From positions 1-20,928 of IMG/VR virus record IMGVR_UViG_3300030390_000523: 20,928 bases of DNA. One strand, given 5' to 3'. This DNA comes from a virus. A program made the translations under genes and the position numbers. Under the pieces are notes generated by a model, which searched no databases, was not told where the DNA came from, and saw nothing but the letters and a program-made list of their open reading frames with translations. Of this stretch, positions 1 through 20,928 are shown one piece after another. How positions within the stretch are numbered: the first letter of the stretch is position 1; each line of letters begins with the position of its first letter.

Positions 1-3000
1 GCTTTGTAAGCGTCTGTAGTTTTTAGTACAGCTACAGCACTATCAATCTTAGCTTGAAAACTCTTACCTCTCTTGCCTGTCTTCTCGTACTTACTTACTA
101 AATCGGTAATGATGTCAAACATCTTCATACCACCCTTAACGGTGGTCTCAATCTTAGAGCCTTTGATTTTTTTATTAGCCTCCTTAACCTCAGCCATTGC
201 TTCGGTTATAGACTTAGCGTCTAAACCTCTTTGCTTTAATGTAAATTCTATTTGCTTATCACTCATACCAAGAGCTAATGCTTCTTTGATTGCAGCCTTA
301 ACATCTCTACCTACCTCGAACCTAGCCTTAGATGATTGAGCTTCAGTCTTTGCGTCAAACTTAGCCTTAGATTTTGCGTCTAAAGGTTTACCACCAAACA
401 AGTCAGCAAGACCTGTGTTAATAAATTCGTCAAGCGTTAGATTCTCTATATCCTTCATCTTTAACTCTTCAGATGTAGTAAACTTCTCTTGAATATATTT
501 AAAGGTAGCGTTCATCCACTCCTTAAACTTAGATTGTTGGGCAGCATTAGCGATAGTCTCACCTTTAGTAGCCATAAGCTCTACTAAGGCTTCCTCTCTA
601 GCTAACTTAGTATCACCATACTTTTCAATCGCAGCTTTTAAGGCATCAGTACCTTCAACTAACTTTAAGCCACGAGCCAAAAGAGCTGTACCTTTTTTAC
701 CTGAAGCATCTGAGCGTAAGAAATCAGTCCATATATGACCGAACTCGTGTATTGGCGTAGCTAAGGAATCAAAAGCAGGGTTTATAAATATCTTACCATC
801 CTTAGTTAAACCAAGAATAGTTTTGCCATTAGACTCTTGAGTTCTAACGCCGGGTTGGTCTAGTATAGCATCAAACTCAACCTGACTTGTTGCTACATTA
901 ACTGATGGGAAGGCAAACTTTAATTTACCTATAAGTATGTCAAGGTTTGACTGCTTCGTTTTAGCAGCGTCAGATTGAAAAACCTTATCATTAAAGAAAG
1001 ACCCACCAACTTGCTGTGTTGCAAACTCTTTAGTTGGGAACTTCCCTGTTTTTTCTCTCTTAAAAACTCTACTAGCTTTAGCTCTCCAAGTTGAGAATAC
1101 ATCAATACCGTGTTTTGGTTTAGAGATTAAAGCTATCGCTTTACCTTTAGGTCCGAAGCCATAGTTGTCGTGATTTACTTTTGTTACACCGCCTTTATCC
1201 GTAACATCAATACCAACAACAGCCACAATATCTCCGTGCTCTCCCTTCATCATTGAAGGTTCTCCGATTGCTTTGTATATGTTATCAGCAAAGAAAGCGT
1301 CTGTATTAAACTTAGGATTCCCTTCAGCTAAAGATTTTATTACAGCCCTACTACTTGTTTTAGCCCCCGGTGGATATATCAATGATTCAAATAATAACTT
1401 TCTCTCGTCAAGAGTTAGGGTATTCATATCACCTTTAGCTCTTTGGTTTGCTTGTTTAACAACTAAGTCAGTTAACTGACCTAGGTTTTTAATCTTATTC
1501 TTATTAATAAATTCCTTCAGTTTAATCGCTGAAGCAACTTTCTTTTTACCTACCGTAGATTTTTGAGAGGCATTCATTACTGCGTCTAAAACAGATTGCA
1601 AATCTGCTAAAGCCTTTACTTGATTCTTTTTTGGTGCAGCCTTTATTGCAGGGCTTACATATCTAAATATAGCTTCATTAGAATTTATGGCGCTATCAGA
1701 CATTCTAGCTATAGCCATAGGTACGTGACCTTGAGGTAGCTTTCCGTCAGCCCATAGCTTGTCAAACAACACTTTATTTTTTTCATATAATTTTACAGCG
1801 TTGTCAAATTGAGTTTTAGCACCATCTTTATTCACACCCGCCCAAGCGGCTTCTGTATTCTTACCTAGTATATTAAACATTAAACCCCCATCAACATCCA
1901 TATTGTTCCCTTGAGCATCTTTTACTGTACCGGAAGCGAGGATGTCTGACATACCTGTTAGCATAGGTATACCATCAAAGAAGTCAATAGGTTTAATTAA
2001 ATCGTTCTCACTTTTAACACCTATAAAGTCTAAGACTTTTCGTGAAATCTTTTTAATCGAGTTACTTTCTTTTATTGGGTTAACTTCATAATCCCTAGAA
2101 GCTCCTGATGCTTCAAACTCAATCTCATTCTTATCCATCTTATTCATCTCCTCAGTAATAGAAGATGTTTCTTGGTCTTGAGTTTCTAATCCATCTAATC
2201 TAAACCTAGGTCCACCATCTACCCCCGTTTCGACATCAGATTCTTGAACTTCTTGTGTAGTCTCTGTGGTAAGTTCGCTGACTTCGCTGACTTCGGTGTC
2301 TCCCTCTCCCACTGTTTGGCTATCTCCGGTTTGTTCTTGTACATCCACCGTCTCTGTGCTTGGCTCTTGAATGGCATTGGCTTGTTCTTTTAAAAGTTGT
2401 TCTTTCTTTGATTGTATCTGTTCTGCAGTTGGGTTTACTACACCTTCTTTATTAAGAGCTTCTACTGCAAACTCTTCAGTCACTATATTAGTTGTTGTGC
2501 TAACATCGTCACCATCAACTATTGTCTCAGTTTCTCTAGCTTCACCTTCTGTAATAGGATTCTCCTGAAGGGATTTAATCTTAGACTTTATCTCTGATGA
2601 TTTATCTTTAGCAAATTGAGTATCATTACCTTTTAAACCATCTAACTCAACCTGAAGCTCTGTTATTGCGTTTAATGTAGGTTCATTAATACTAGAGTCT
2701 ACCTTTAAAATATCATTCTTTATAGTAGCCTCCTTAAACTTCTCGTCATAAATTGCTTGAAGTTCAGAATCGTTCTCTATATTAATATCTGCTTTAAGTA
2801 ATTGCTCGGGAGTTGACTCTCGTAAAAACTTAGCCATCATAGGCCCCGACACCTTAGCGTCATTACCCGTACCATTAATCTTGTACTTAGGAGACTTATA
2901 TAGACCATATCCTACGGATATTGGAGCTGTAGCTGTACCTGCCACACCTTCAAATAAAACCTCTGCCACGTCCATCTCTTGACCTGCAGCTACCCTACCT

Positions 3001-4193
3001 GCTATCTCACCTACAGAACCACCTACAGCTTCAGTTGCCCCACCGGCTGCTGAAGCTAATAATTTTCTACCCGTAGACTTAGCTACAGAGGTTGTTAATT
3101 TACTCGCTACACCACCAAACGCTGCGTCTACAGCTCCGATAGTTAAACCTCTAGCTACAGCTTTAAATCTAATATCGTCCATCATCTCTTCATCCTGAAG
3201 AACTTCACGAATATTTTCATTAGTCATTGGCTTATCACCAAGCTGTTCTTGAAGTAGCTCTGAGTACGTAAGACCTGCTTCTAGAGCTGTACCTGCACCA
3301 CCCATAGCTCCCGCTATAGCTCCTGCTCCAACACCAAAAGGTGTAAGTGTAGCTGACCCTGCAACAGCTCCTGCACCCGCACCTGTGGCTGCACCTGCTA
3401 ATACTGCAGGCGTTAGCATAGCACTAACCGAGGATACGAATAGTTGTGGTATAACAGTTGGGTTAGCGGCAACGCCTTTTATAAAACCAAGGACACCACC
3501 ACCATCTTTTTGATATATTTTTTGGAAGTCACGCATTTCATCAGATTCACCTGCGTCCTGCATTCTTTTTTGTGCAGCTATAAAGTCTTGTATATCTTCA
3601 TCGCTTGCGTCAGCGCCCTTTGCAAATAATTCAAGTGACTCATCTACTGAACCACCCTGTGCTTGACCTGCTGCACCGGCTCTATATAAGTCACCAAATA
3701 AATCTGTAACTACATTCTTACCGAATGCTCTTTCAAGGGCTGTATCTTTCTCGCCTTGCTCAAACTCAGCATCTGAGAAGTCAAAATTAATATCTCTATC
3801 CCTTAAGGAAAAACTCTCTCTTTCTGTTGAGGTAAAGTCTGTTGGAACAGACTCATCTACAATTGAAACCTCTTGCTCTTGTATTGATTGAGGGTTAGCC
3901 TCTTGTATTGGAACTGAAACATCCGATGAGATAACTTCTTCCTGCTCTGTTGGTGTAATGGATTCCGTAACGTCCTCTTGAGTAATAGAATCGGACTCGT
4001 CTTTTTTTTTTACTCCAACAAGGGTTGAGAATTCTTCTATAGATTTTCCGTACCCTTGTTCTTTGACATAATTATAGTTATCATTTAAAACATCATTATC
4101 TTTATTAAGTAATAATGAAAACTCTTCTATAGATTTTTGGTATCCTTTTGATACAGCCCTATTATAAAGGTCTTTTAAAACTTGCTCGTCCAC
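1..4193 (-). CDS. Giant internal virion/ejection protein with HEFGH zinc metallopeptidase domain (C-terminus beyond window)
   Basis: An open frame of 1397 codons runs off the left edge without a stop. I chose the GTG at 4193, 5 nt after the stop of the upstream gene, because an in-frame stop lies just before it and the next in-frame ATG is about 200 codons later. Visible regions are: residues 1-60, two copies of a G-Y-x-K-S-I-E-E-F-S repeat; about 233-430, a Gly/Ala-rich hydrophobic stretch likely to meet membranes; about 535-685, a Glu/Thr/Gln-rich probably disordered linker; about 1110-1210, a metallopeptidase-like domain with H1149-E-F-G-H followed by REEALVELMA at 1199-1208, which supplies a candidate third zinc ligand. 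Known: HExxH followed by a downstream Glu-rich helix is typical of gluzincins, and similar domains occur in ArdC and phage polyvalent proteins. Inferred: it is packaged and ejected with the DNA, filling the T7 gp16 slot as last gene of a gp13-16-like cassette. No lytic transglycosylase motif was seen. The peptidase substrate is unknown. Confidence 0.7.
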   Translation of the reverse strand, partial: MDEQVLKDLYNRAVSKGYQKSIEEFSLLLNKDNDVLNDNYNYVKEQGYGKSIEEFSTLVGVKKKDESDSITQEDVTESITPTEQEEVISSDVSVPIQEANPQSIQEQEVSIVDESVPTDFTSTERESFSLRDRDINFDFSDAEFEQGEKDTALERAFGKNVVTDLFGDLYRAGAAGQAQGGSVDESLELFAKGADASDEDIQDFIAAQKRMQDAGESDEMRDFQKIYQKDGGGVLGFIKGVAANPTVIPQLFVSSVSAMLTPAVLAGAATGAGAGAVAGSATLTPFGVGAGAIAGAMGGAGTALEAGLTYSELLQEQLGDKPMTNENIREVLQDEEMMDDIRFKAVARGLTIGAVDAAFGGVASKLTTSVAKSTGRKLLASAAGGATEAVGGSVGEIAGRVAAGQEMDVAEVLFEGVAGTATAPISVGYGLYKSPKYKINGTGNDAKVSGPMMAKFLRESTPEQLLKADINIENDSELQAIYDEKFKEATIKNDILKVDSSINEPTLNAITELQVELDGLKGNDTQFAKDKSSEIKSKIKSLQENPITEGEARETETIVDGDDVSTTTNIVTEEFAVEALNKEGVVNPTAEQIQSKKEQLLKEQANAIQEPSTETVDVQEQTGDSQTVGEGDTEVSEVSELTTETTQEVQESDVETGVDGGPRFRLDGLETQDQETSSITEEMNKMDKNEIEFEASGASRDYEVNPIKESNSIKKISRKVLDFIGVKSENDLIKPIDFFDGIPMLTGMSDILASGTVKDAQGNNMDVDGGLMFNILGKNTEAAWAGVNKDGAKTQFDNAVKLYEKNKVLFDKLWADGKLPQGHVPMAIARMSDSAINSNEAIFRYVSPAIKAAPKKNQVKALADLQSVLDAVMNASQKSTVGKKKVASAIKLKEFINKNKIKNLGQLTDLVVKQANQRAKGDMNTLTLDERKLLFESLIYPPGAKTSSRAVIKSLAEGNPKFNTDAFFADNIYKAIGEPSMMKGEHGDIVAVVGIDVTDKGGVTKVNHDNYGFGPKGKAIALISKPKHGIDVFSTWRAKASRVFKREKTGKFPTKEFATQQVGGSFFNDKVFQSDAAKTKQSNLDILIGKLKFAFPSVNVATSQVEFDAILDQPGVRTQESNGKTILGLTKDGKIFINPAFDSLATPIHEFGHIWTDFLRSDASGKKGTALLARGLKLVEGTDALKAAIEKYGDTKLAREEALVELMATKGETIANAAQQSKFKEWMNATFKYIQEKFTTSEELKMKDIENLTLDEFINTGLADLFGGKPLDAKSKAKFDAKTEAQSSKARFEVGRDVKAAIKEALALGMSDKQIEFTLKQRGLDAKSITEAMAEVKEANKKIKGSKIETTVKGGMKMFDIITDLVSKYEKTGKRGKSFQAKIDSAVAVLKTTDAYK
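4026..4136 (-). repeat. In-frame tandem repeat in the N-terminus of the giant protein
   Basis: Two near-identical 21-bp blocks, at 4116-4136 and 4026-4046, lie exactly 90 bp (30 codons) apart and both encode KSIEEFS. The surrounding residues also repeat: a Tyr about 10 residues before, a GY pair, and a Leu after. The unit is therefore about 30 residues, read as Y-x(6-8)-G-Y-x-K-S-I-E-E-F-S-x-L. Comparable N-terminal repeats with a 'Y...EEF' pattern are, from memory, common in large virion proteins of Bacteroidota phages. The function is unknown; a packaging or docking signal is possible. Confidence 0.75.
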
Positions 4194-7273: not shown

Positions 7274-7678
7274 TTATAATACTTTAATCATTTCTTTATT
7301 GTATGAATCCCCTATTGTATAACCCTGCTGCTCATAAACACCAATAAGTCCGTTATGCTTTATAAGGGCATAAGCGAACTTATTATCTAGGTTCTTTGCA
7401 ACTGATGTTAATGTCTGTATCAATATTGATAACGCTTCTTTACGTGATTCTTTATACTCCTTGTTAGATATAATCCAATCTACCCACGCTACTTTTGAGT
7501 TGGTGTTATACAAAAAGCCTGCGCATACAGGCGTATCACCGTCCCAAACCATTACACCACCTTGACCATCCTGAGGTAAGAAATCTCTGCTAGGAGCTTC
7601 CCATCCCCAATCCTTCCACCATCCCTTAAGGATGTTGTCGTAATCTTCGTGCTGTAGTGGAGTTGTATTAAATTTCAT
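7274..7678 (-). CDS. Degenerate GNAT-fold protein (T7 gp13-like position)
   Basis: The 134-residue protein has the general layout of a GNAT acetyltransferase. A strand of small and hydrophobic residues (VMVWDGDTPVCAGFLY, about 42-57) leads to a central strand (WVDWIIS) and a long helix. Near the C-terminus comes KHNGLIGVYEQQGY, which resembles the typical GNAT 'N...lYek.GF' segment. The usual acetyl-CoA-binding Q/R-x-x-G-x-G/A turn is not visible; Y-K-E-S-R-K-E-A lies in its place, so catalysis is doubtful. T7 gp13 (about 138 residues) is a virion assembly protein in the same position just before gp14, and from memory it also looks GNAT-like. A structural or assembly role is therefore as likely as acetylation. 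The start ATG follows a 22-nt gap with a promoter-like box. Confidence 0.6.
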   Translation of the reverse strand: MKFNTTPLQHEDYDNILKGWWKDWGWEAPSRDFLPQDGQGGVMVWDGDTPVCAGFLYNTNSKVAWVDWIISNKEYKESRKEALSILIQTLTSVAKNLDNKFAYALIKHNGLIGVYEQQGYTIGDSYNKEMIKVL

Positions 7679-14232: not shown

Positions 14233-15156
14233 CTACTTAATCCACTTGTTTTGTCCTCTTAGATTCATAAGCAATCTACCCGGATGTATGTTACTGATTC
14301 TTATCTTTGCGTTACGTAGAAGTGATGACTTCTTTTTCCTTGCTCTATTTACAATGTATTCCTGAACGCCCAACTTGCTATCTAAGATAGAGTATTGAAT
14401 GTATGCGTACACGTACTCTTCAAATAGTTTATTAACTGTTATAAGAGAATTATCACCACCCTCCATACCATCAGATACGTACTCTACTATCACGCTCTTA
14501 CCTGACATCGTAGAATCAAAATTAATAACCCCTGCTTTCGAATCTATTCTAAATGTAGGGTTAGCATTAGCCGTCTCCGTATTAAGCCCGTAACGAGCTC
14601 CTATTGCAAAATCAAAGTACCACATACCATCACAACAATAACCTTCTGCATTGTTGTATGCGCTATTCTCATTTAAGTATATCGTCTTCTTAGTACCTGT
14701 AATCCTATCAACGTCAATTGGTGAGAACTCAGGCTTTAATACACTACCCGATTCGTCAAATAATATCTTAGCATTATTATCTTGCAAGTATGCTTGCGCT
14801 GATGTCAACTGAATATTCTCAGTCATTGGATACAATACACCATTCTCATACAAAGAAACACGAACCCAATTAACATAGTCTGAAGGCAACACGAATCGTA
14901 CTGCATCATTCACTGTAAGTTGAAGAGTCTTAATCTCCTTAAACGCATCGTAGTTAAGCTCCTGCACTGCACGCTTAGCGTGAAATAGAATCTTAAAACG
15001 GTCCTCGTTATTTACCAAAGAGTGGTTTCCTTGGTACATCAACATAAAGTTATTGACAATATCCTTTAGGCTAACGTATTGGTATGAACCCCAATTAGCA
15101 TCCTCAGGGTTTGCGCCTGAATTTTCGTAGTACTGATACTGAGATATATATGCCAT
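14233..15156 (-). CDS. Connector/ring (tail tubular) protein, crAss-like
   Basis: The 307-residue protein starts M-A-Y-I-S-Q-Y-Q-Y-Y-E-N-S-G and contains N-W-G-S-Y-Q-Y-V-S-L-K-D-I-V-N-N-F and F-H-A-K-R-A-V-Q-E-L-N-Y-D-A, then VLPSDYVNWVRVSLYENGVL (about 93-112). I recall this pattern as a strongly conserved protein of Bacteroidota podoviruses. An N-terminal helical part followed by a 'LP.DYvn.vrv' beta part is the layout of tail tubular/gatekeeper proteins (T7 gp11, P22 gp4). Its basic C-terminus (RARKKKSSLLRNAKIRIS...) may contact DNA. The ATG overlaps the preceding stop by one base (TAATG), so the two connector proteins are translationally coupled. It should sit between portal and muzzle. 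Which ring it is cannot be told from sequence alone. Confidence 0.7.
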   Translation of the reverse strand: MAYISQYQYYENSGANPEDANWGSYQYVSLKDIVNNFMLMYQGNHSLVNNEDRFKILFHAKRAVQELNYDAFKEIKTLQLTVNDAVRFVLPSDYVNWVRVSLYENGVLYPMTENIQLTSAQAYLQDNNAKILFDESGSVLKPEFSPIDVDRITGTKKTIYLNENSAYNNAEGYCCDGMWYFDFAIGARYGLNTETANANPTFRIDSKAGVINFDSTMSGKSVIVEYVSDGMEGGDNSLITVNKLFEEYVYAYIQYSILDSKLGVQEYIVNRARKKKSSLLRNAKIRISNIHPGRLLMNLRGQNKWIK

Positions 15157-15869
15157 TATTGTTGTAAGTTATTTTGTTGTTCTTCTCCTTGTGCGTACTG
15201 CACCACCATTGCCTCACGTATCTCAACACCTGCGTACTGACATATCTTTACAACCAAATCATTTAGGTTGTCAAGCGGTAACTCAAAGTCTTGATAATCA
15301 ACTGCGGATTCATTAAACACAGGGCCTTGTTCTTCTAAAACTGCCCTGTAAGTCCATTTAGGTGTTAAAGGGTATCTAACGTACTGAGCTGATATATCTG
15401 CAGCACCATTAAATGTACTAGGATAAATTGTCATTACAGACCCTTCAGTCGTGTATGCAGGAAAGTCAACGCTAGGTGCTGTAAGAATTGAAGCGTTAAG
15501 CATTGTAATCTTTGACTGACTAACCCTTTCAGCTTCTCCTTTAAACGCACCACCACTTGAGCAAAGCACCTTGTTGATTAGGTAATAATCTGAAGGCGTT
15601 GTGTATGTGTTGGTCGCAACTTGAACTAACGGAGCTGTCTTTGAAAACAAATCAATAGTCTCAAGTATGCCTTTAGATAAATTAGCGTACTCAGTTCCTG
15701 ACCTACGTGCATTTTCTAAGTTAAGTTGTGTGTTGTATTGGTAAAAGCAATCCTCAAATATCTCTAACTGTGCTTTTTGTGCATACAGGTTAAAGTCTGA
15801 TGGGGAAAGGTATCCGTAGTTATTCTTATTAAGTATAGCAAGGACTGTATTTCTTACTGCATCTATCAT
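15156..15869 (-). CDS. Head-to-tail adaptor/ring protein, crAss-like
   Basis: The 237-residue protein begins M-I-D-A-V-R-N-T-V-L-A-I-L-N-K-N-N-Y-G-Y and continues S-P-S-D-F-N-L-Y-A-Q-K-A-Q-L-E-I-F-E-D, a helical N-terminus. The motif P-S-D-Y-Y-L-I-N-K-V lies near 90-100 and parallels the P-S-D-Y-V-N-W-V of its neighbour. A beta part follows, with I-S-A-Q-Y-V-R-Y-P-L-T-P-K-W at about 160-173, and a Gln-rich tail. This layout is shared by head-tail connector proteins of podoviruses, and I recall close look-alikes in marine flavobacterial phages. It is the first gene after a terminator and a promoter-like box (15 nt between box and ATG), so it probably opens the long downstream operon. The exact ring position is inferred. 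Confidence 0.65.
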   Translation of the reverse strand: MIDAVRNTVLAILNKNNYGYLSPSDFNLYAQKAQLEIFEDCFYQYNTQLNLENARRSGTEYANLSKGILETIDLFSKTAPLVQVATNTYTTPSDYYLINKVLCSSGGAFKGEAERVSQSKITMLNASILTAPSVDFPAYTTEGSVMTIYPSTFNGAADISAQYVRYPLTPKWTYRAVLEEQGPVFNESAVDYQDFELPLDNLNDLVVKICQYAGVEIREAMVVQYAQGEEQQNNLQQ

Positions 15870-15884
15870 CTTAAAATCTTTTCA

Positions 15885-15892
15885 CAAATATA
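15885..15892 (-). promoter_or_regulatory. Promoter-like TATATTTG box opening the connector-to-ejection operon
   Basis: The minus strand reads T9-GCG-TATATTTG-TG directly after a terminator. TATATTTG fits the Bacteroidota TAnnTTTG element, and its distance to the ATG at 15869 would give a very short leader. The same T9-GC-TATATTTG arrangement recurs at 19534-19552, which strengthens the call. No TTG-type -33 element is visible at the usual spacing, because the terminator stem occupies that space. Confidence 0.6.
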
Positions 15893-15895
15893 CGC

Positions 15896-15926
15896 AAAAA
15901 AAAAGAGCCCTATAAAAAGGCTCTTT
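15896..15926 (-). terminator. Rho-independent terminator after the paralogue array
   Basis: The minus strand has an 8-bp stem (AAAGAGCC at 15919-15926 pairing with GGCTCTTT at 15902-15909), a 9-nt loop and a run of T down to 15896. It lies 22 nt after the stop of the 513-residue gene. Confidence 0.85.
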
Positions 15927-15948: not shown

Positions 15949-17490
15949 CTAGCTTGCAACTATGTCAGTTATAAGCACCGGAGGAGTTATCTCTAAAACC
16001 TCAGCAGTATTATTACCATTTGCTAAACGGATAATGCTGTCTTGGAAGAAGTTTCTCATCTGCACTCTTGAAGATGCGGATGCACCTGCATAAGTTATAG
16101 TAAGAGTATCAGCTCCATCAGTAAGCCCGTTGTTTATTACAACAGTGTTTTCTGTTGGTGCACTTACCATTGATACATTATCAACTCCAATTAGCTTTGG
16201 TTGGTTCACAACCTCTTGCAATGATATGCTATTAAGCGTAAACGATGAGCCTATATCAGCGGCAGAATTAACATCAATACCAAAATATATACCACTATCA
16301 GAACCTTGCCTTGTGTATCTAAATTCATTTTCACCTAGCTTTAATTTAATACGGTAGTAGCCTGAGCCATTATACCAAATAAAATCAGAAGTACCTACTA
16401 TTGATTCAACATCAATTTTAAGAAGATACTCTTGATTCGTAGCTGTAAAATTATCTGACGCTGCAATATGATTGAAGCCTGTAGTTGCTGCGATAAACCT
16501 AACAGTCTTAGCTTGTAAATCAAATACAGAGTTTTGGCCTCCTGCATTATCTGAACCAAACCTTTCGTACCCATAAGCAAACTGATTGGTTGCTTGTAGA
16601 GAGATGTTTGCGTAGTTTGTTTGTTTAGCACCTGACCTGTTCCCTGCATAAAAGTTTACAACAGTGGATGTACCGTCAGCTACAAACGTAAGACTACCTG
16701 AACCACTCGTAACATCAACATCTACTGCAGCTAATCCGTTAACATTCCAAATAGCTATACTATTGTCAGCTAAATCTCCTGTAACACTAGCTACATTAAA
16801 CTTATATTCAGTACCTATAACTGTAGGGATGTTTAATTTAACCAATTGACCACCACTACTAGATATAGCTTGAAGTACACTAGATTGAATATTTGCTGAA
16901 GAAAGATTGTTGGTAGACCACTGAGGTAAAGTAATTACAGCAGTACCGTCAGCTATATCCGTAAAATTACCGTCACTTACAAGTTCAACAATACCTACCT
17001 GTTTAACAGATATATTATCAAACTCCATATATGCTCCTGATGTAACTGTCCCTGTTTTTATTAATAAATATAGGTCTTGAGTTGAAGTTGCAGTAAAAAT
17101 GTAACTATGAATCCCATTTGTTTGAAACCTAGTTCCACTCAAAACATCACCTGTATTAAATGTTGTTCCTAAAAAAAGTTGAGATTGTGCATTTGAAGAC
17201 GTTCCTTGAAAACTTTCATATTTTATCTCATACGTTTTACCTGAAACTACTGATAACGTAGGTACTCCATTAATAGATGTAAATCCTGCAGCACTTCCAT
17301 CTCCATTTGTTACACGGATTTTATCATTAACAATACTTAACTCTGCTGCAGAGTCATTGCCGGTCCAACCCGATAACCCTGATGAGAAATCACCGTTTGC
17401 TATCAATTCAGGACCGTACCCCTCAAAAGAACCATTACTTAGGACCTCAGGTCCCAAGTATGATTTGTTTAGTTTTAAAAAATTTGCCAT
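15949..17490 (-). CDS. Paralogue 4: putative capsid decoration/head-fibre protein with two to three jelly-roll modules
   Basis: The 513-residue protein starts MANFLKLNKS, like its three upstream neighbours, and ends in the shared small domain (about 430-513), with T-L-T-I-T-Y, then R-V-Q-M-R-N-F-F-Q-D-S-I-I-R-L-A and L-I-T-D-I. Between these lie inserts resembling carbohydrate-binding (CBM4/9-like) jelly rolls. Module 1 (about 28-165) begins LIANGDFSSGLSGW and closes with M-E-F-D-N-I-S-V-K-Q-V. Module 2 (167-300) begins LVSDGNF and closes Y-A-N-I-S-L-Q. A less clear module 3 (301-428) closes L-N-S-I-S-L-Q-E-V. Residues 13-23 and 26-36 look like a short partial duplication (GPE.L.NG.F). The gene follows the previous paralogue with a 1-nt gap and ends before a terminator. 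Surface exposure and glycan binding are inferred. Confidence 0.55.
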   Translation of the reverse strand: MANFLKLNKSYLGPEVLSNGSFEGYGPELIANGDFSSGLSGWTGNDSAAELSIVNDKIRVTNGDGSAAGFTSINGVPTLSVVSGKTYEIKYESFQGTSSNAQSQLFLGTTFNTGDVLSGTRFQTNGIHSYIFTATSTQDLYLLIKTGTVTSGAYMEFDNISVKQVGIVELVSDGNFTDIADGTAVITLPQWSTNNLSSANIQSSVLQAISSSGGQLVKLNIPTVIGTEYKFNVASVTGDLADNSIAIWNVNGLAAVDVDVTSGSGSLTFVADGTSTVVNFYAGNRSGAKQTNYANISLQATNQFAYGYERFGSDNAGGQNSVFDLQAKTVRFIAATTGFNHIAASDNFTATNQEYLLKIDVESIVGTSDFIWYNGSGYYRIKLKLGENEFRYTRQGSDSGIYFGIDVNSAADIGSSFTLNSISLQEVVNQPKLIGVDNVSMVSAPTENTVVINNGLTDGADTLTITYAGASASSRVQMRNFFQDSIIRLANGNNTAEVLEITPPVLITDIVAS

Positions 17491-17491
17491 C

Positions 17492-18847
17492 TTATGAAAG
17501 TGTTATAGCTGTTGTTGTCAACACCTGATTATATTTATGGTCTCTAAACTCATTAAGAGGAATATCTAACCTACTAGCCGTTGCTGACCGAGCGTTTAAT
17601 CTCTGAACAAACATCTCAATCACGTCAGCCACAAAGTATGTGTTAACCGCATCGTTAAGCTGTGTTAGAGTTACCTTATCGGCTTGAGGGCCTGCAGCAA
17701 ACCAAAAAGATGATAGGTTAGGCGAACTTGAAGCCTCGTCATACTCAGAGATAATGTAATTGTCTATACGAAGAAGTTGATTCCCTCTTGTATCACCGTT
17801 AGGCGCAAAGATAAAGAATGAGTCTCCTGCATCTGAAAGAATATCGTTAGATAATAACAATACGTCATTGCTTATTACTTGCAAAACAACAGCCTCGGTA
17901 TCATCGCTATAGTTAAACACTACATCACCAACCTTACATTGCTTTAAGAAATCACCACCCACTACCTGTAGATAGTTGTACTGAACCTCTTTAACTGTAA
18001 TACCACTTAATGTAAATGTTAGGGCATTAGTTCCTGAAACAAATCTTAAATCAGGAGATGTGCCTTGGCCTTCATCATAAACAGAGTAAAATAAGTTACT
18101 ACCATCAGTAGACCTAAACTTCAAGTCAGTTCCAACCTGACCAAATGCTCCCGTACTACTAATACCTGCAGTGCTTGCTTGACTCATATCAGATAAGGTA
18201 AACCCTACTTGATATGACTTACTGTCTACAAGTTGTGAGGTTATATTAGATACTAAATAGTCAGTATTAGTAGCTACACCTCTAGAAGCTGACGAACCAT
18301 TCAAAGTCCAACCATTTCCTGCGGTAAAGTTTGCAGGGATATAATCACTAGAAACTATCTCTTCACCTAAAACAAACGGTACTTCTTTAATGGATATAGA
18401 ATCTACATAGAATTGTGCTACAGCACTGTCACCTCTTAAAAATATATTTCCTGAATTTGTTCGTGCGCCTGTAAAGGTACCTGTTAGTGTTTGCCAAGAA
18501 CCTGTTGTTGTTGTAGAAACAAAATCATTAGGTGCATCTTCATCTACAGCATCAACTCTAAAAGCTCCACTAACTAAGAAAACTTCTACAGTAATTTGGT
18601 ATTTTACGCCATTAACAAAATCAAAAGGTTGCTTTACTCTTGATTGACCTGTAGCAGTAACATTAATATTTGCAACATTACTTCTGCCCTCGTGTGTACC
18701 AATCGTAATGGTAGCTCCATTTTCAGCTTGCCAAGCAGTTGTACCCGCCGGAAAGTCTCCATCAACAACCAACTCCTGCGACCCGTAGGTTGGAGTGACT
18801 GCTTGACCGCCTGCCACTTGAAGTGGTATTCCTAAATACTTTGCCAT
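17492..18847 (-). CDS. Paralogue 3: putative capsid decoration/head-fibre protein with two jelly-roll modules
   Basis: The 451-residue protein starts MAKYLGIPLQ and ends in the shared small domain (about 360-451: D-K-V-T-L-T, N-T-Y-F-V-A-D-V-I-E-M-F-V, then T-T-T-A-I-T-L-S). Insert 1 (24-156) opens ELVVDGDFPAGTTAW and closes F-Y-V-D-S-I-S-I-K-E-V, the usual signature of CBM4/9-like jelly rolls. Insert 2 (160-289) opens LGEEIVSSDY, has G-N-G-W-T-L, and closes T-L-S-G-I-T-V-K-E-V. Residues 298-350 form a small beta block (CKVGDVVFNY to AGDSFFIF) resembling one in the 265-residue tail protein. It lies 10 nt after paralogue 2. The most likely role is a virion surface protein; whether it decorates the capsid or forms a fibre cannot be told from sequence. 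Confidence 0.55.
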   Translation of the reverse strand: MAKYLGIPLQVAGGQAVTPTYGSQELVVDGDFPAGTTAWQAENGATITIGTHEGRSNVANINVTATGQSRVKQPFDFVNGVKYQITVEVFLVSGAFRVDAVDEDAPNDFVSTTTTGSWQTLTGTFTGARTNSGNIFLRGDSAVAQFYVDSISIKEVPFVLGEEIVSSDYIPANFTAGNGWTLNGSSASRGVATNTDYLVSNITSQLVDSKSYQVGFTLSDMSQASTAGISSTGAFGQVGTDLKFRSTDGSNLFYSVYDEGQGTSPDLRFVSGTNALTFTLSGITVKEVQYNYLQVVGGDFLKQCKVGDVVFNYSDDTEAVVLQVISNDVLLLSNDILSDAGDSFFIFAPNGDTRGNQLLRIDNYIISEYDEASSSPNLSSFWFAAGPQADKVTLTQLNDAVNTYFVADVIEMFVQRLNARSATASRLDIPLNEFRDHKYNQVLTTTAITLS

Positions 18848-18857
18848 ACCTATATAT

Positions 18858-19184
18858 TTAAGATAAAACTACTCCTGTAATAGCCATTAAAGAGCCGTCT
18901 GCTGTTTTAATAGAAGCTAAGTTTAAAGTCTGAATTGTTTCTCTCCAATTAGAGCTATGTAGATTTACAATAGCGTCTTGTATAGCATCTCTCATTGCAT
19001 AAATGTTAGATGCGTTAGGTTCCGTGTGAGTTAAAGTTATAATATCGTCAGAAGCAGACCCCGCACTATAATGAATTATAGTTGTGGTATCAGTACCTCT
19101 CTTTATTGTAGCTATCATATCAATACCTATAGTTACACTTGGACCACTATTTCCTGTTACCGGTAATTTTAAAAACTTTGCCAT
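18858..19184 (-). CDS. Paralogue 2: minimal-domain putative capsid decoration protein
   Basis: The 108-residue protein is the shared core without any insert. It starts MAKFLKLPVTGN, then has T-T-T-I-I-H-Y, I-I-T-L-T-H, Y-A-M-R-D-A-I-Q-D-A-I-V-N-L and the C-terminal L-N-L-A-S-I-K-T-A-D-G followed by I-T-G-V-V-L-S. The last two segments align well with paralogues 1 and 4. It has no signal peptide or membrane helix. It starts 2 nt after paralogue 1. Its small size and place between the capsid protein and the connector proteins fit a capsid-bound decoration protein, but no known family was recognised. Confidence 0.55.
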   Translation of the reverse strand: MAKFLKLPVTGNSGPSVTIGIDMIATIKRGTDTTTIIHYSAGSASDDIITLTHTEPNASNIYAMRDAIQDAIVNLHSSNWRETIQTLNLASIKTADGSLMAITGVVLS

Positions 19185-19186
19185 AA

Positions 19187-19498
19187 TTATGCGAATGTTA
19201 TACTAGTTAATTCTACTTGAGTCCCATCAGCCGCATTAATTCCTTTTAAATCTAAAGGAAAAACTACATCAGTATAAGAACTCTTCATTGATTCAGCCAT
19301 AGCATTTGAAATTGCTATACGTACACTATGGTCATTAGCAGCCATTGCACTATGTCCTATAGTAGCTTTATTACCACCTGCATAACTTGCAAAATCAATT
19401 ATTGTTTGTGTTGTTGAATTAGTTTCGCATAATAATAAAGGAAATACTTGAAGCAATTGCTTACCTTGATTGCCGTCTATTGAAAGATATTTAACCAT
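19187..19498 (-). CDS. Paralogue 1: minimal-domain putative capsid decoration protein
   Basis: The 103-residue protein starts MVKYLSIDGNQG and ends with L-D-L-K-G-I-N-A-A-D-G followed by E-L-T-S-I-T-F-A. The middle has T-T-Q-T-I-I-D-F, A-T-I-G-H-S and R-I-A-I-S-N-A-M, which line up with the same places in paralogue 2. It is the first gene after a terminator and a TATATTTG box (35 nt between box and ATG), so it probably heads a four-gene transcription unit. No Shine-Dalgarno sequence is visible; the leader is A/T-rich, as is common in Bacteroidota. The function is unknown. Confidence 0.55.
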   Translation of the reverse strand: MVKYLSIDGNQGKQLLQVFPLLLCETNSTTQTIIDFASYAGGNKATIGHSAMAANDHSVRIAISNAMAESMKSSYTDVVFPLDLKGINAADGTQVELTSITFA

Positions 19499-19533: not shown

Positions 19534-19541
19534 CAAATATA
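19534..19541 (-). promoter_or_regulatory. Promoter-like TATATTTG box opening the paralogue array
   Basis: The minus strand reads T9-GC-TATATTTG-TAGGG immediately after a terminator, matching the Bacteroidota TAnnTTTG element. The predicted leader is about 28-30 nt. A nearly identical arrangement is found at 15885-15904. No -33 TTG element is visible. Confidence 0.6.
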
Positions 19542-19543
19542 GC

Positions 19544-19575
19544 AAAAAAAAAGGAAGCATTTCTGCCTCCCTTTT
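19544..19575 (-). terminator. Rho-independent terminator after the 250-residue gene
   Basis: On the minus strand GGAGGCA (19564-19570) pairs with TGCTTCC (19553-19559), with one G-T pair and a GAAA loop, followed by nine T. It starts just after the stop codon. Confidence 0.85.
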
Positions 19576-19576
19576 A

Positions 19577-20329
19577 CTACTTAGTCTCTGCGACTTTTTC
19601 TAGAAATTCTAGAACGTCTAGACCATCATCACTTTGTAAGTAAGATGAGACCACGTACAACGGGTCCTCTCCAAACGGAATAACAAGCATCCGTTTTTTA
19701 TTAGTAGGAGTATTAAAGAATACTTCCTTCTTATTCTTTCTAAAAGCTAACACGCCTTTATCAAAGAATGATTGTATCATTGAGTCGATATGTAAAGATG
19801 AGTCTCCTACAACCTGTAAGAATGCCGCAGGGTTCTGCTTAGCAAATAATAAAATATCTCTACGAAGCTCAGATGATGTAATTGTACTAGGGTCAGTACC
19901 AAACGCTACACGAGTAACCGCTTCTATTTGGTCTATACTTAACTCACGAGCTGCAATCAATGCATCAGCCTCTAAGTTTAAATCCTCTAGTACTTCAGAA
20001 GCCTCTTTGTTTTTATCAACTAAAGAATACTTAACATCCTTTGCAGGGTGTAAATCTAAAAACTTCTGTAATGCTTGGTTTGATTTTGGAACTGTTAAAA
20101 ACCCATCCTCAAATACAATTGGCTCTAGTATTGCGTTGCCATCTTGCTCATCCTCAAACGGACTCTGTTGGTTTCTTGCATATCGAAGTGCTCTTTGCTC
20201 TCCTTTATCCTCATCAAACCATAGTAATGGGAATCTTCTTGAATTTCTTGAAGCAAGCATAAACGATAAAGGTGCGTCTTGACCTAATAGCTTGTACTGC
20301 TTATCTACGTACTCTACTGTTTTTTTCAT
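19577..20329 (-). CDS. Conserved phage protein of unknown function next to the capsid gene
   Basis: The 250-residue protein is mostly soluble and mixed in charge, with no signal peptide or membrane helix. The region P-L-L-W-F-D-E-D-K-G then L-R-Y-A-R-N-Q-Q-S-P-F-E-D-E-Q-D-G-N-A (about 34-65) is one I recall as conserved in Bacteroidota phages near the capsid gene, without a known function. Later segments include L-N-L-E-A-D-A-L-I-A-A-R and R-R-D-I-L-L-F-A-K-Q-N-P-A-A-F-L, both helical. The ATG at 20329 is preceded by an A/T-rich leader with two AAATTCAAAT copies and no Shine-Dalgarno sequence. The gene sits between two terminators, so it may be expressed by read-through from the capsid unit. 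A head-associated or assembly role is possible but unproven. Confidence 0.6.
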   Translation of the reverse strand: MKKTVEYVDKQYKLLGQDAPLSFMLASRNSRRFPLLWFDEDKGEQRALRYARNQQSPFEDEQDGNAILEPIVFEDGFLTVPKSNQALQKFLDLHPAKDVKYSLVDKNKEASEVLEDLNLEADALIAARELSIDQIEAVTRVAFGTDPSTITSSELRRDILLFAKQNPAAFLQVVGDSSLHIDSMIQSFFDKGVLAFRKNKKEVFFNTPTNKKRMLVIPFGEDPLYVVSSYLQSDDGLDVLEFLEKVAETK

Positions 20330-20397: not shown

Positions 20398-20928
20398 CTA
20401 CTCTTGGAATAAGAAGAAGTTGTTTGCACCTAAGGTACATACAGCTCTCTCAGACAAGAAGTTAACCTCCATTGCATCCAAGTCAGAAGTAGCTGCGCCA
20501 CCTGCTGAACCTGTAATCCAAGTCTTGTAACGTCTGTCTTCAGTTTGTGAAGCTCTGTAACGTACGTGTAAGAAAGGACGCTTAGCGTTCTTACCTAAGA
20601 TTTGGTCATATACTGAAGTTGAACCTGCAGGTACTAATAACCCATTGATTCGACCTGAACCTGCACCTGTCGGTAAACCACCACGCATAGTTGGGTCATT
20701 CAAGTACTTCCAATCAGACTTGTAGAAGTCATAACCTCTACGGAATCCTGTGAATCCTAAGTTCAACGCCATCTCTTGGTCATTGTCAAATAAACCATAT
20801 GAAGTACCACCTGCTCCGTAAGAGTTTTGTGCTGCTAACATATCGTCAATATCAAATCCAAACTGACGGTCAACGAATATTACGTTTTCCTCAATAGAAC
20901 CTTGCTTATCAAGACGTTGGATAATTGA
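20398..20928 (-). CDS. Major capsid protein, C-terminal 176 residues (5' end beyond window)
   Basis: The reading frame stays open to the right window edge: codons before the internal ATG at 20841 encode S-I-I-Q-R-L-D-K-Q-G-S-I-E-E-N-V-I-F-V-D-R-Q, so that ATG is not the true start. Segments A-L-N-L-G-F-T-G-F-R-R-G, Y-D-F-Y-K-S-D-W-K-Y-L-N-D, P-A-G-S-T-S-V-Y-D-Q-I-L-G, R-P-F-L-H-V-R-Y-R-A-S and E-V-N-F-L-S-E-R-A-V-C then N-N-F-F-L-F match, from memory, the C-terminal part of HK97-fold major capsid proteins of crAss-like and related Bacteroidota phages. It forms the shell of the head. A palindromic terminator right after the stop is usual for this very highly expressed gene. The family call is good; the exact lineage is less sure. 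Confidence 0.8.
   Translation of the reverse strand, partial: SIIQRLDKQGSIEENVIFVDRQFGFDIDDMLAAQNSYGAGGTSYGLFDNDQEMALNLGFTGFRRGYDFYKSDWKYLNDPTMRGGLPTGAGSGRINGLLVPAGSTSVYDQILGKNAKRPFLHVRYRASQTEDRRYKTWITGSAGGAATSDLDAMEVNFLSERAVCTLGANNFFLFQE

Follow-up and report, generated by a model that had tools for sequence, protein, structure and literature searches.

Four tandem genes between a capsid gene and a ring gene share one domain

The window analyzed here is the whole 20,928-nucleotide (nt) stretch of IMG/VR virus record IMGVR_UViG_3300030390_000523, a 20.9-kb virus fragment whose structural genes match those of Flavobacterium elemo phages, Maribacter phage Panino, Cellulophaga phages phi38:1 and phi19:3, and Tenacibaculum phage Gundel_1. 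On its minus strand, the window encodes, in order, a probable major capsid protein, a 250-residue protein, a cassette of four proteins (103, 108, 451, and 513 residues), a 237-residue ring protein, and two structural proteins of 307 and 1556 residues. The cassette is the subject of this study, and the site that it occupies between the 250-residue and ring genes is referred to as the slot (Table 1). L numbers denote the loci compared.

A sequence-only reading of this DNA had proposed that the four genes are paralogues with a common start, M-[AV]-[KN]-[FY]-L. This start is present in all four open reading frames (ORFs), each on the minus strand and in the place expected. The proposal that one domain is common to the four proteins is secure for the 103-, 108-, and 513-residue proteins (profile E of 1e-15 to 1e-27) and weaker for the 451-residue protein. 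In pairwise searches, the 108-residue protein aligns with the 103-residue protein over the full length (E 6e-7) and with the C terminus of the 513-residue protein (E 2e-6). When profiles from four separate ortholog sets were compared, as the same reading had suggested, the 103/108 and 108/513 pairs gave E 1e-7 and E 3e-10, respectively. In addition, the 103, 108, and 513 ortholog profiles each matched other slot proteins at E 1e-13 to 1e-16, with unrelated neighbors as controls giving E 0.1-0.6. A profile of 66 relatives, built without any window row, gave 86 bits for the 108-residue protein, 69 bits for the 103-residue protein, and 46 bits for the 513-residue protein, and none of 500 shuffles of each matched the real score.

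For the 451-residue protein, the direct profile score was 6.9 bits (E 0.016, collinear over residues 352-444), a value that 1 of 500 shuffles equaled. Its ortholog in L119 was found at E 5e-5 by a profile without any 451-type row, the window protein itself was retrieved through 250-residue intermediates at E 5e-6 before its own inclusion, and its relatives align at the same place. Based on the L119 ortholog, the aligned relatives, and the intermediates, we take the 451-residue protein to be a probable divergent member of the family. The letter motif that the sequence-only reading had drawn through all four C termini is clear in the other three proteins and not in this one. As that reading had also held, the core domain matches no known family: we found no match in Pfam, PHROGs, or PDB sequences, no description in literature searches, and no family member in the bacterial genomes searched.

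Table 1. Features of the cassette and its surroundings in the window
Feature	Position	Strand	Basis or remark
103-residue family member, domain alone	19187..19498	-	E 7e-22, profile without window rows
108-residue family member, domain alone	18858..19184	-	E 4e-27, profile without window rows; AlphaFold model
451-residue family member (probable) with inserts	17492..18847	-	Direct E 0.016, indirect E 5e-6
513-residue family member with large insert	15949..17490	-	E 9e-15, profile without window rows
N-terminal anchor strand, 451-residue protein (residues 1-12)	18812..18847	-	100% identical in close orthologs, any insert
C-terminal anchor part, 451-residue protein (residues 350-451), divergent	17495..17800	-	E 0.016 direct, E 5e-6 via intermediates
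N-terminal anchor strand, 513-residue protein (residues 1-12)	17455..17490	-	100% identical in 15/21 loci compared
C-terminal anchor part, 513-residue protein (last 85 residues)	15952..16206	-	Profile and ortholog comparison
Inserted CBM_4_9 jelly roll, 451-residue protein (residues 22-156)	18380..18784	-	Pfam PF02018 and VIA
Small KVGD beta domain, 451-residue protein (~residues 290-348)	17804..17980	-	Common to other slot proteins and ring proteins
Variable insert with jelly-roll-like repeats, 513-residue protein	16207..17454	-	Identity contrast; CBM_4_9 in L081 ortholog
Terminator upstream of cassette, after 250-residue gene	19548..19575	-	Terminator search
Terminator ending cassette	15902..15926	-	Terminator search
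TATATTTG, TAnnTTTG element before first cassette gene	19534..19541	-	Follows upstream terminator
TATATTTG before ring-protein gene, start of next unit	15885..15892	-	Follows cassette-closing terminator
Probable major capsid protein	20398..20928	-	Truncated by window end; phrog_13704, head and packaging
250-residue left flank of slot, crAss001 gp33 homologue	19577..20329	-	hhalign and phrog_34748
237-residue right flank, ring protein like crAss001 gp34 (R4/R5)	15156..15869	-	hhalign and phrog_14543

The two long proteins carry inserts within the anchor domain

The shared domain had been placed at the C terminus. The last ~85 residues do belong to it, but the first ~12 residues, an N-terminal strand, belong to it as well. 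The genes that correspond to the 451- and 513-residue genes in L003, L004, L006, and L152 encode proteins of ~180 and 100 residues that lack the central part; therefore, the central part of the long genes is an insert after approximately residue 12. The AlphaFold model of the 108-residue protein (predicted local distance difference test [pLDDT] 83.8, predicted template modeling score [pTM] 0.76) consists of five strands, a helix (residues 63-77), and two further strands, and the insertion point lies within the first interstrand loop (between strands 4-8 and 16-20). The best explanation is that the domain, hereafter the anchor, is one small alpha/beta domain composed of the N-terminal strand together with the last ~85 residues, and that the short proteins are the anchor only. 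A Foldseek search of the PDB with the 108-residue model returned nothing under E 0.5, and the best VIA match (Z 4.9, to PH/PTB/FERM-F3 domains) is below the level of a shared fold. Its matches in BFVD are uncharacterized marine virus proteins, with a TM-score of up to 0.87.

The sequence-only reading missed the build of the two long genes, in which carbohydrate-binding module (CBM) jelly rolls are recognizable. Specifically, residues 25-129 of the 451-residue protein match PF02018 (CBM_4_9) at E 1.9e-9, with 38.5 bits lying above the gathering cutoff of 25.9. VIA aligns ~130 residues of this jelly roll, mostly at 2.3-3.1 Å and with Z of 13-14.8, to CBM4, CBM16, CBM22, and a porphyran-binding CBM. 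Besides this jelly roll, the insert contains a small KVGD beta domain and another beta-rich region that is less certain. The window 513-residue protein has no Pfam match; its L081 ortholog matches CBM_4_9 at E 1.7e-5, with 25.7 bits, just under the cutoff. As judged from these folds, the inserts may bind glycans.

Two further observations concern the inserted domains. The ring proteins of many relatives (L043, L044, L059, L066, and others), mostly from genomes with an empty slot, contain an inserted KVGD beta domain of ~70 residues like that of the window 451-residue protein. We considered whether the extra length of ring proteins in empty-slot genomes was a fused family member and rejected this, as the extra length is the KVGD module. 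Among isolate phages, the only matches of the 513-residue protein are to proteins of cyanophages, and they involve its insert. One of these, a virion structural protein of cyanophage S-PM2 (p176, L155 1513-4689), has a region like this insert (25% identity, E 2e-5).

Anchor and inserts evolve at unequal rates

In close orthologs of the 513-residue protein, the first 12 residues are 100% identical and the last 85 residues 93-99% identical, with the insert at 45-63%. At the DNA level, the same contrast is 88-96% for the anchor versus 58-72% for the insert. The insert of a nearer relative (L117) is 84% identical, and distant orthologs (L137 and L145) retain 55-79% identity in the anchor and ~30% in the insert. 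Inserts have also been exchanged between paralogues: residues 161-298 of the 451-type protein of L120 form a domain that shares 49% identity (E 3e-39) with the first insert in the window 513-residue protein.

The family occupies a single slot in variable copy number

An iterated profile search recovered 186 family ORFs in 148 contigs, all of them in the slot, with the gp33-like gene on one side and the ring gene on the other; none lies elsewhere in these contigs, and searches of whole records agree. Among the 95 contigs with both flanks, the slot holds no copy in 33, one in 33, two in 14, three in 5, four in 7, six in 2, and nine in 1, counts that include near-identical contigs and from which divergent copies can escape. 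The largest set, in L145 (659-7605), comprises nine tandem members, six of them short and three of 534-606 residues. No family member was found in six complete or near-complete named phage genomes of relatives, which were searched whole. In L046 (2166-3386), the slot is filled by a protein of ~400 residues that begins with a signal-peptide-like stretch and contains a CHU_C domain, a type IX secretion signal (Pfam E 7.5e-15), which is unusual for a phage late gene; similar ORFs occupy the slot in L035 (2-883) and L064 (5985-7271).

Both flanks of the slot relate to phage crAss001. The 250-residue protein matches gp33 (hhalign probability 73.5%, E 3e-5, 152 columns), and the 237-residue protein shows a weaker link to gp34 (hhalign probability 34%, E 4e-4, 132 collinear columns). 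Consequently, the cassette sits between homologues of two genes that neighbor each other in crAss001.

As proposed earlier, terminators on the cassette strand lie before and after the four genes. Each terminator is followed by a TAnnTTTG element of the Bacteroidota -7 type. Of the first slot genes, 49 of 56 have this element within 90 nt, as do 57 of 70 ring genes; the corresponding figures are 5 of 61 for slot genes further along, 9 of 100 for the 307-residue gene, and 7% for random stretches. As related upstream sequences are not independent, these counts overstate the evidence. Judged by these signals, the slot is a separate transcription unit.

Other genes of the window

A 1397-residue gene truncated by the window end (3-4193, minus strand; phrog_32588, function unknown) encodes an HEFGH metallopeptidase-like motif. 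Within the structural gene block lies a 134-residue phrog_17252 protein (7274-7678, minus strand), whose positional counterpart in MW202828 is annotated as an N-terminal acetyltransferase complex subunit. One tail gene has at least 600 relatives in IMG/VR.

The cassette proteins as candidate surface proteins of the virion

Altogether, we consider it probable that the four genes encode optional virion surface proteins, most likely bound to the capsid. This reading is based on a constrained anchor combined with fast-changing displayed domains, a late unit beside the capsid gene, and absence from relatives. The sequence-only reading had suggested a multicopy decoration set whose members would occupy different capsid positions. 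For the multicopy set, this reading is partly supported: the structural-gene location, the separate unit, the 0-9 copies, the absence from six relatives, and the conserved anchor with variable inserts all agree with it, and it needs amending in that the domain is not just C-terminal and the long members carry CBM jelly rolls. The cassette would be transcribed as its own late unit, and jelly rolls inserted in the first loop of the anchor would be kept at a distance from the particle. Constraint on the anchor would be strong because it must fit the particle, and the inserts would diverge and be exchanged because they meet changing glycans, for example, on the host surface or in algal polysaccharide.

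Several results weigh against capsid decoration. AlphaFold does not resolve the C-terminal 100 residues of the 451-residue protein, which form part of its anchor (pLDDT <50), and glycan binding is argued from the fold alone. The family profile has no match to T4 Hoc or to its last 96 residues (hhalign probability 0.2%, E 0.3), and the anchor has no sequence match to crAss001 gp36 (hhalign probability 0.5%, E 0.12), phi29 gp8.5 or crAss001 gp21 (hhalign probability 0.9% and 0.1%), or crAss001 gp29. Nor did tblastn searches of isolate phages with three small members find the family in cultured phages. Finally, the slot adjoins the ring-protein gene, and the KVGD domain common to the 451-residue protein and the ring proteins of relatives makes a neck position possible. 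The chief alternative is accordingly that the proteins are neck or tail-associated whiskers or fibers attached at the ring or connector, which we regard as unlikely, if clearly the strongest competitor. In relatives, a slot protein with the KVGD domain matches a tail fiber PHROG in that domain (phrog_1980, E 5.6e-6), and similar jelly rolls are carried by phage tailspikes. However, the ring gene opens a transcription unit of its own, with a separate TAnnTTTG element after the cassette terminator, and a module found in several protein types says little about place. For up to nine copies and many single-domain members, a 12-fold collar would also be a poorer fit than the many sites of a capsid lattice. 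It is gene order and analogy that suggest attachment at the capsid and not at the neck.

It is improbable that the cassette encodes nonstructural late proteins, such as exported or cell-surface glycan-binding proteins that alter the host surface or block superinfection. Such a role would be in keeping with a dispensable, variable, CBM-bearing cassette and with the CHU_C protein, with its type IX secretion signal domain, that fills the slot in some relatives. However, the window proteins start with MAKFL or MAKYL and have no signal-peptide-like start, their genes lie among the structural genes and have transcription signals of their own, and an anchor so constrained (93-99% identity among close orthologs) would imply a conserved docking partner. 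An internal head or ejected protein is more improbable still: the capsid gene is nearby, and crAss001 gp33, the homologue of the left neighbor, is annotated with a DNA-binding domain, but neither CBM jelly rolls nor inserts that change fast would serve an obvious purpose within a head.

Returning to surface display, we tentatively propose a broader picture that could well prove correct, although we hold it with less assurance than the virion location. The cassette may represent an undescribed modular display system of flavobacterial podoviruses, in which a single anchor fold, present as up to nine paralogues in tandem at one fixed site bounded by the capsid and ring genes, carries interchangeable glycan-binding inserts in one surface loop; adhesion would then be altered by exchanging inserts, with assembly left as it is. 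Flavobacteria often grow on polysaccharides from algae. The group, one of marine phages, is common in IMG/VR, and its cultured relatives infect flavobacteria. If particle decoration is true, these phages possess a natural set of glycan-binding heads that can be exchanged on a single anchor, which would allow a direct test, beyond the mucus setting of Hoc, of whether phage ecology is driven by particle adhesion to glycans of algae or of the host, and the anchor would be a compact scaffold tolerant of large loop inserts.

Comparison with known systems

The inserted jelly roll of the 451-residue protein belongs to CBM_4_9 (PF02018) by its Pfam match and has a CBM fold; it differs in being an insert in a phage late protein rather than attached to an enzyme. 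Among phage head proteins, the phi29 head fiber gp8.5 is similar in that its gene adjoins the major capsid gene. The auxiliary capsid protein gp36 of crAss001 has a PH-like domain split by an inserted domain (PMC10172136), the same insert-split plan as in the 451- and 513-residue proteins, and gp36 and the head fibers gp21 and gp29 are capsid proteins of a Bacteroidota podovirus with a related gene order. In contrast, gp36 is a single gene after the ring genes gp34 and gp35, whereas here a separate slot holds 0-9 copies with CBM inserts.

A close parallel in design is T4 Hoc, in which a conserved capsid-binding domain is combined with variable immunoglobulin (Ig)-like domains; domains of another type are displayed in some proteins of the Hoc kind (PMC10385173). 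On the capsid, T4 Hoc binds at the centers of hexamers. The cassette proteins similarly pair a conserved anchor with variable displayed domains (93-99% versus 45-63% in close orthologs). Hoc, too, is dispensable, is present in some phages as two copies of different length, and can have its displayed domain replaced by another type. The two systems differ in that the Ig-like domains are strung before the Hoc anchor, whereas CBM jelly rolls lie in a loop inside the anchor here, and in that the present family reaches nine tandem paralogues. Most likely, the cassette proteins act like decoration proteins while standing outside every described family tested.

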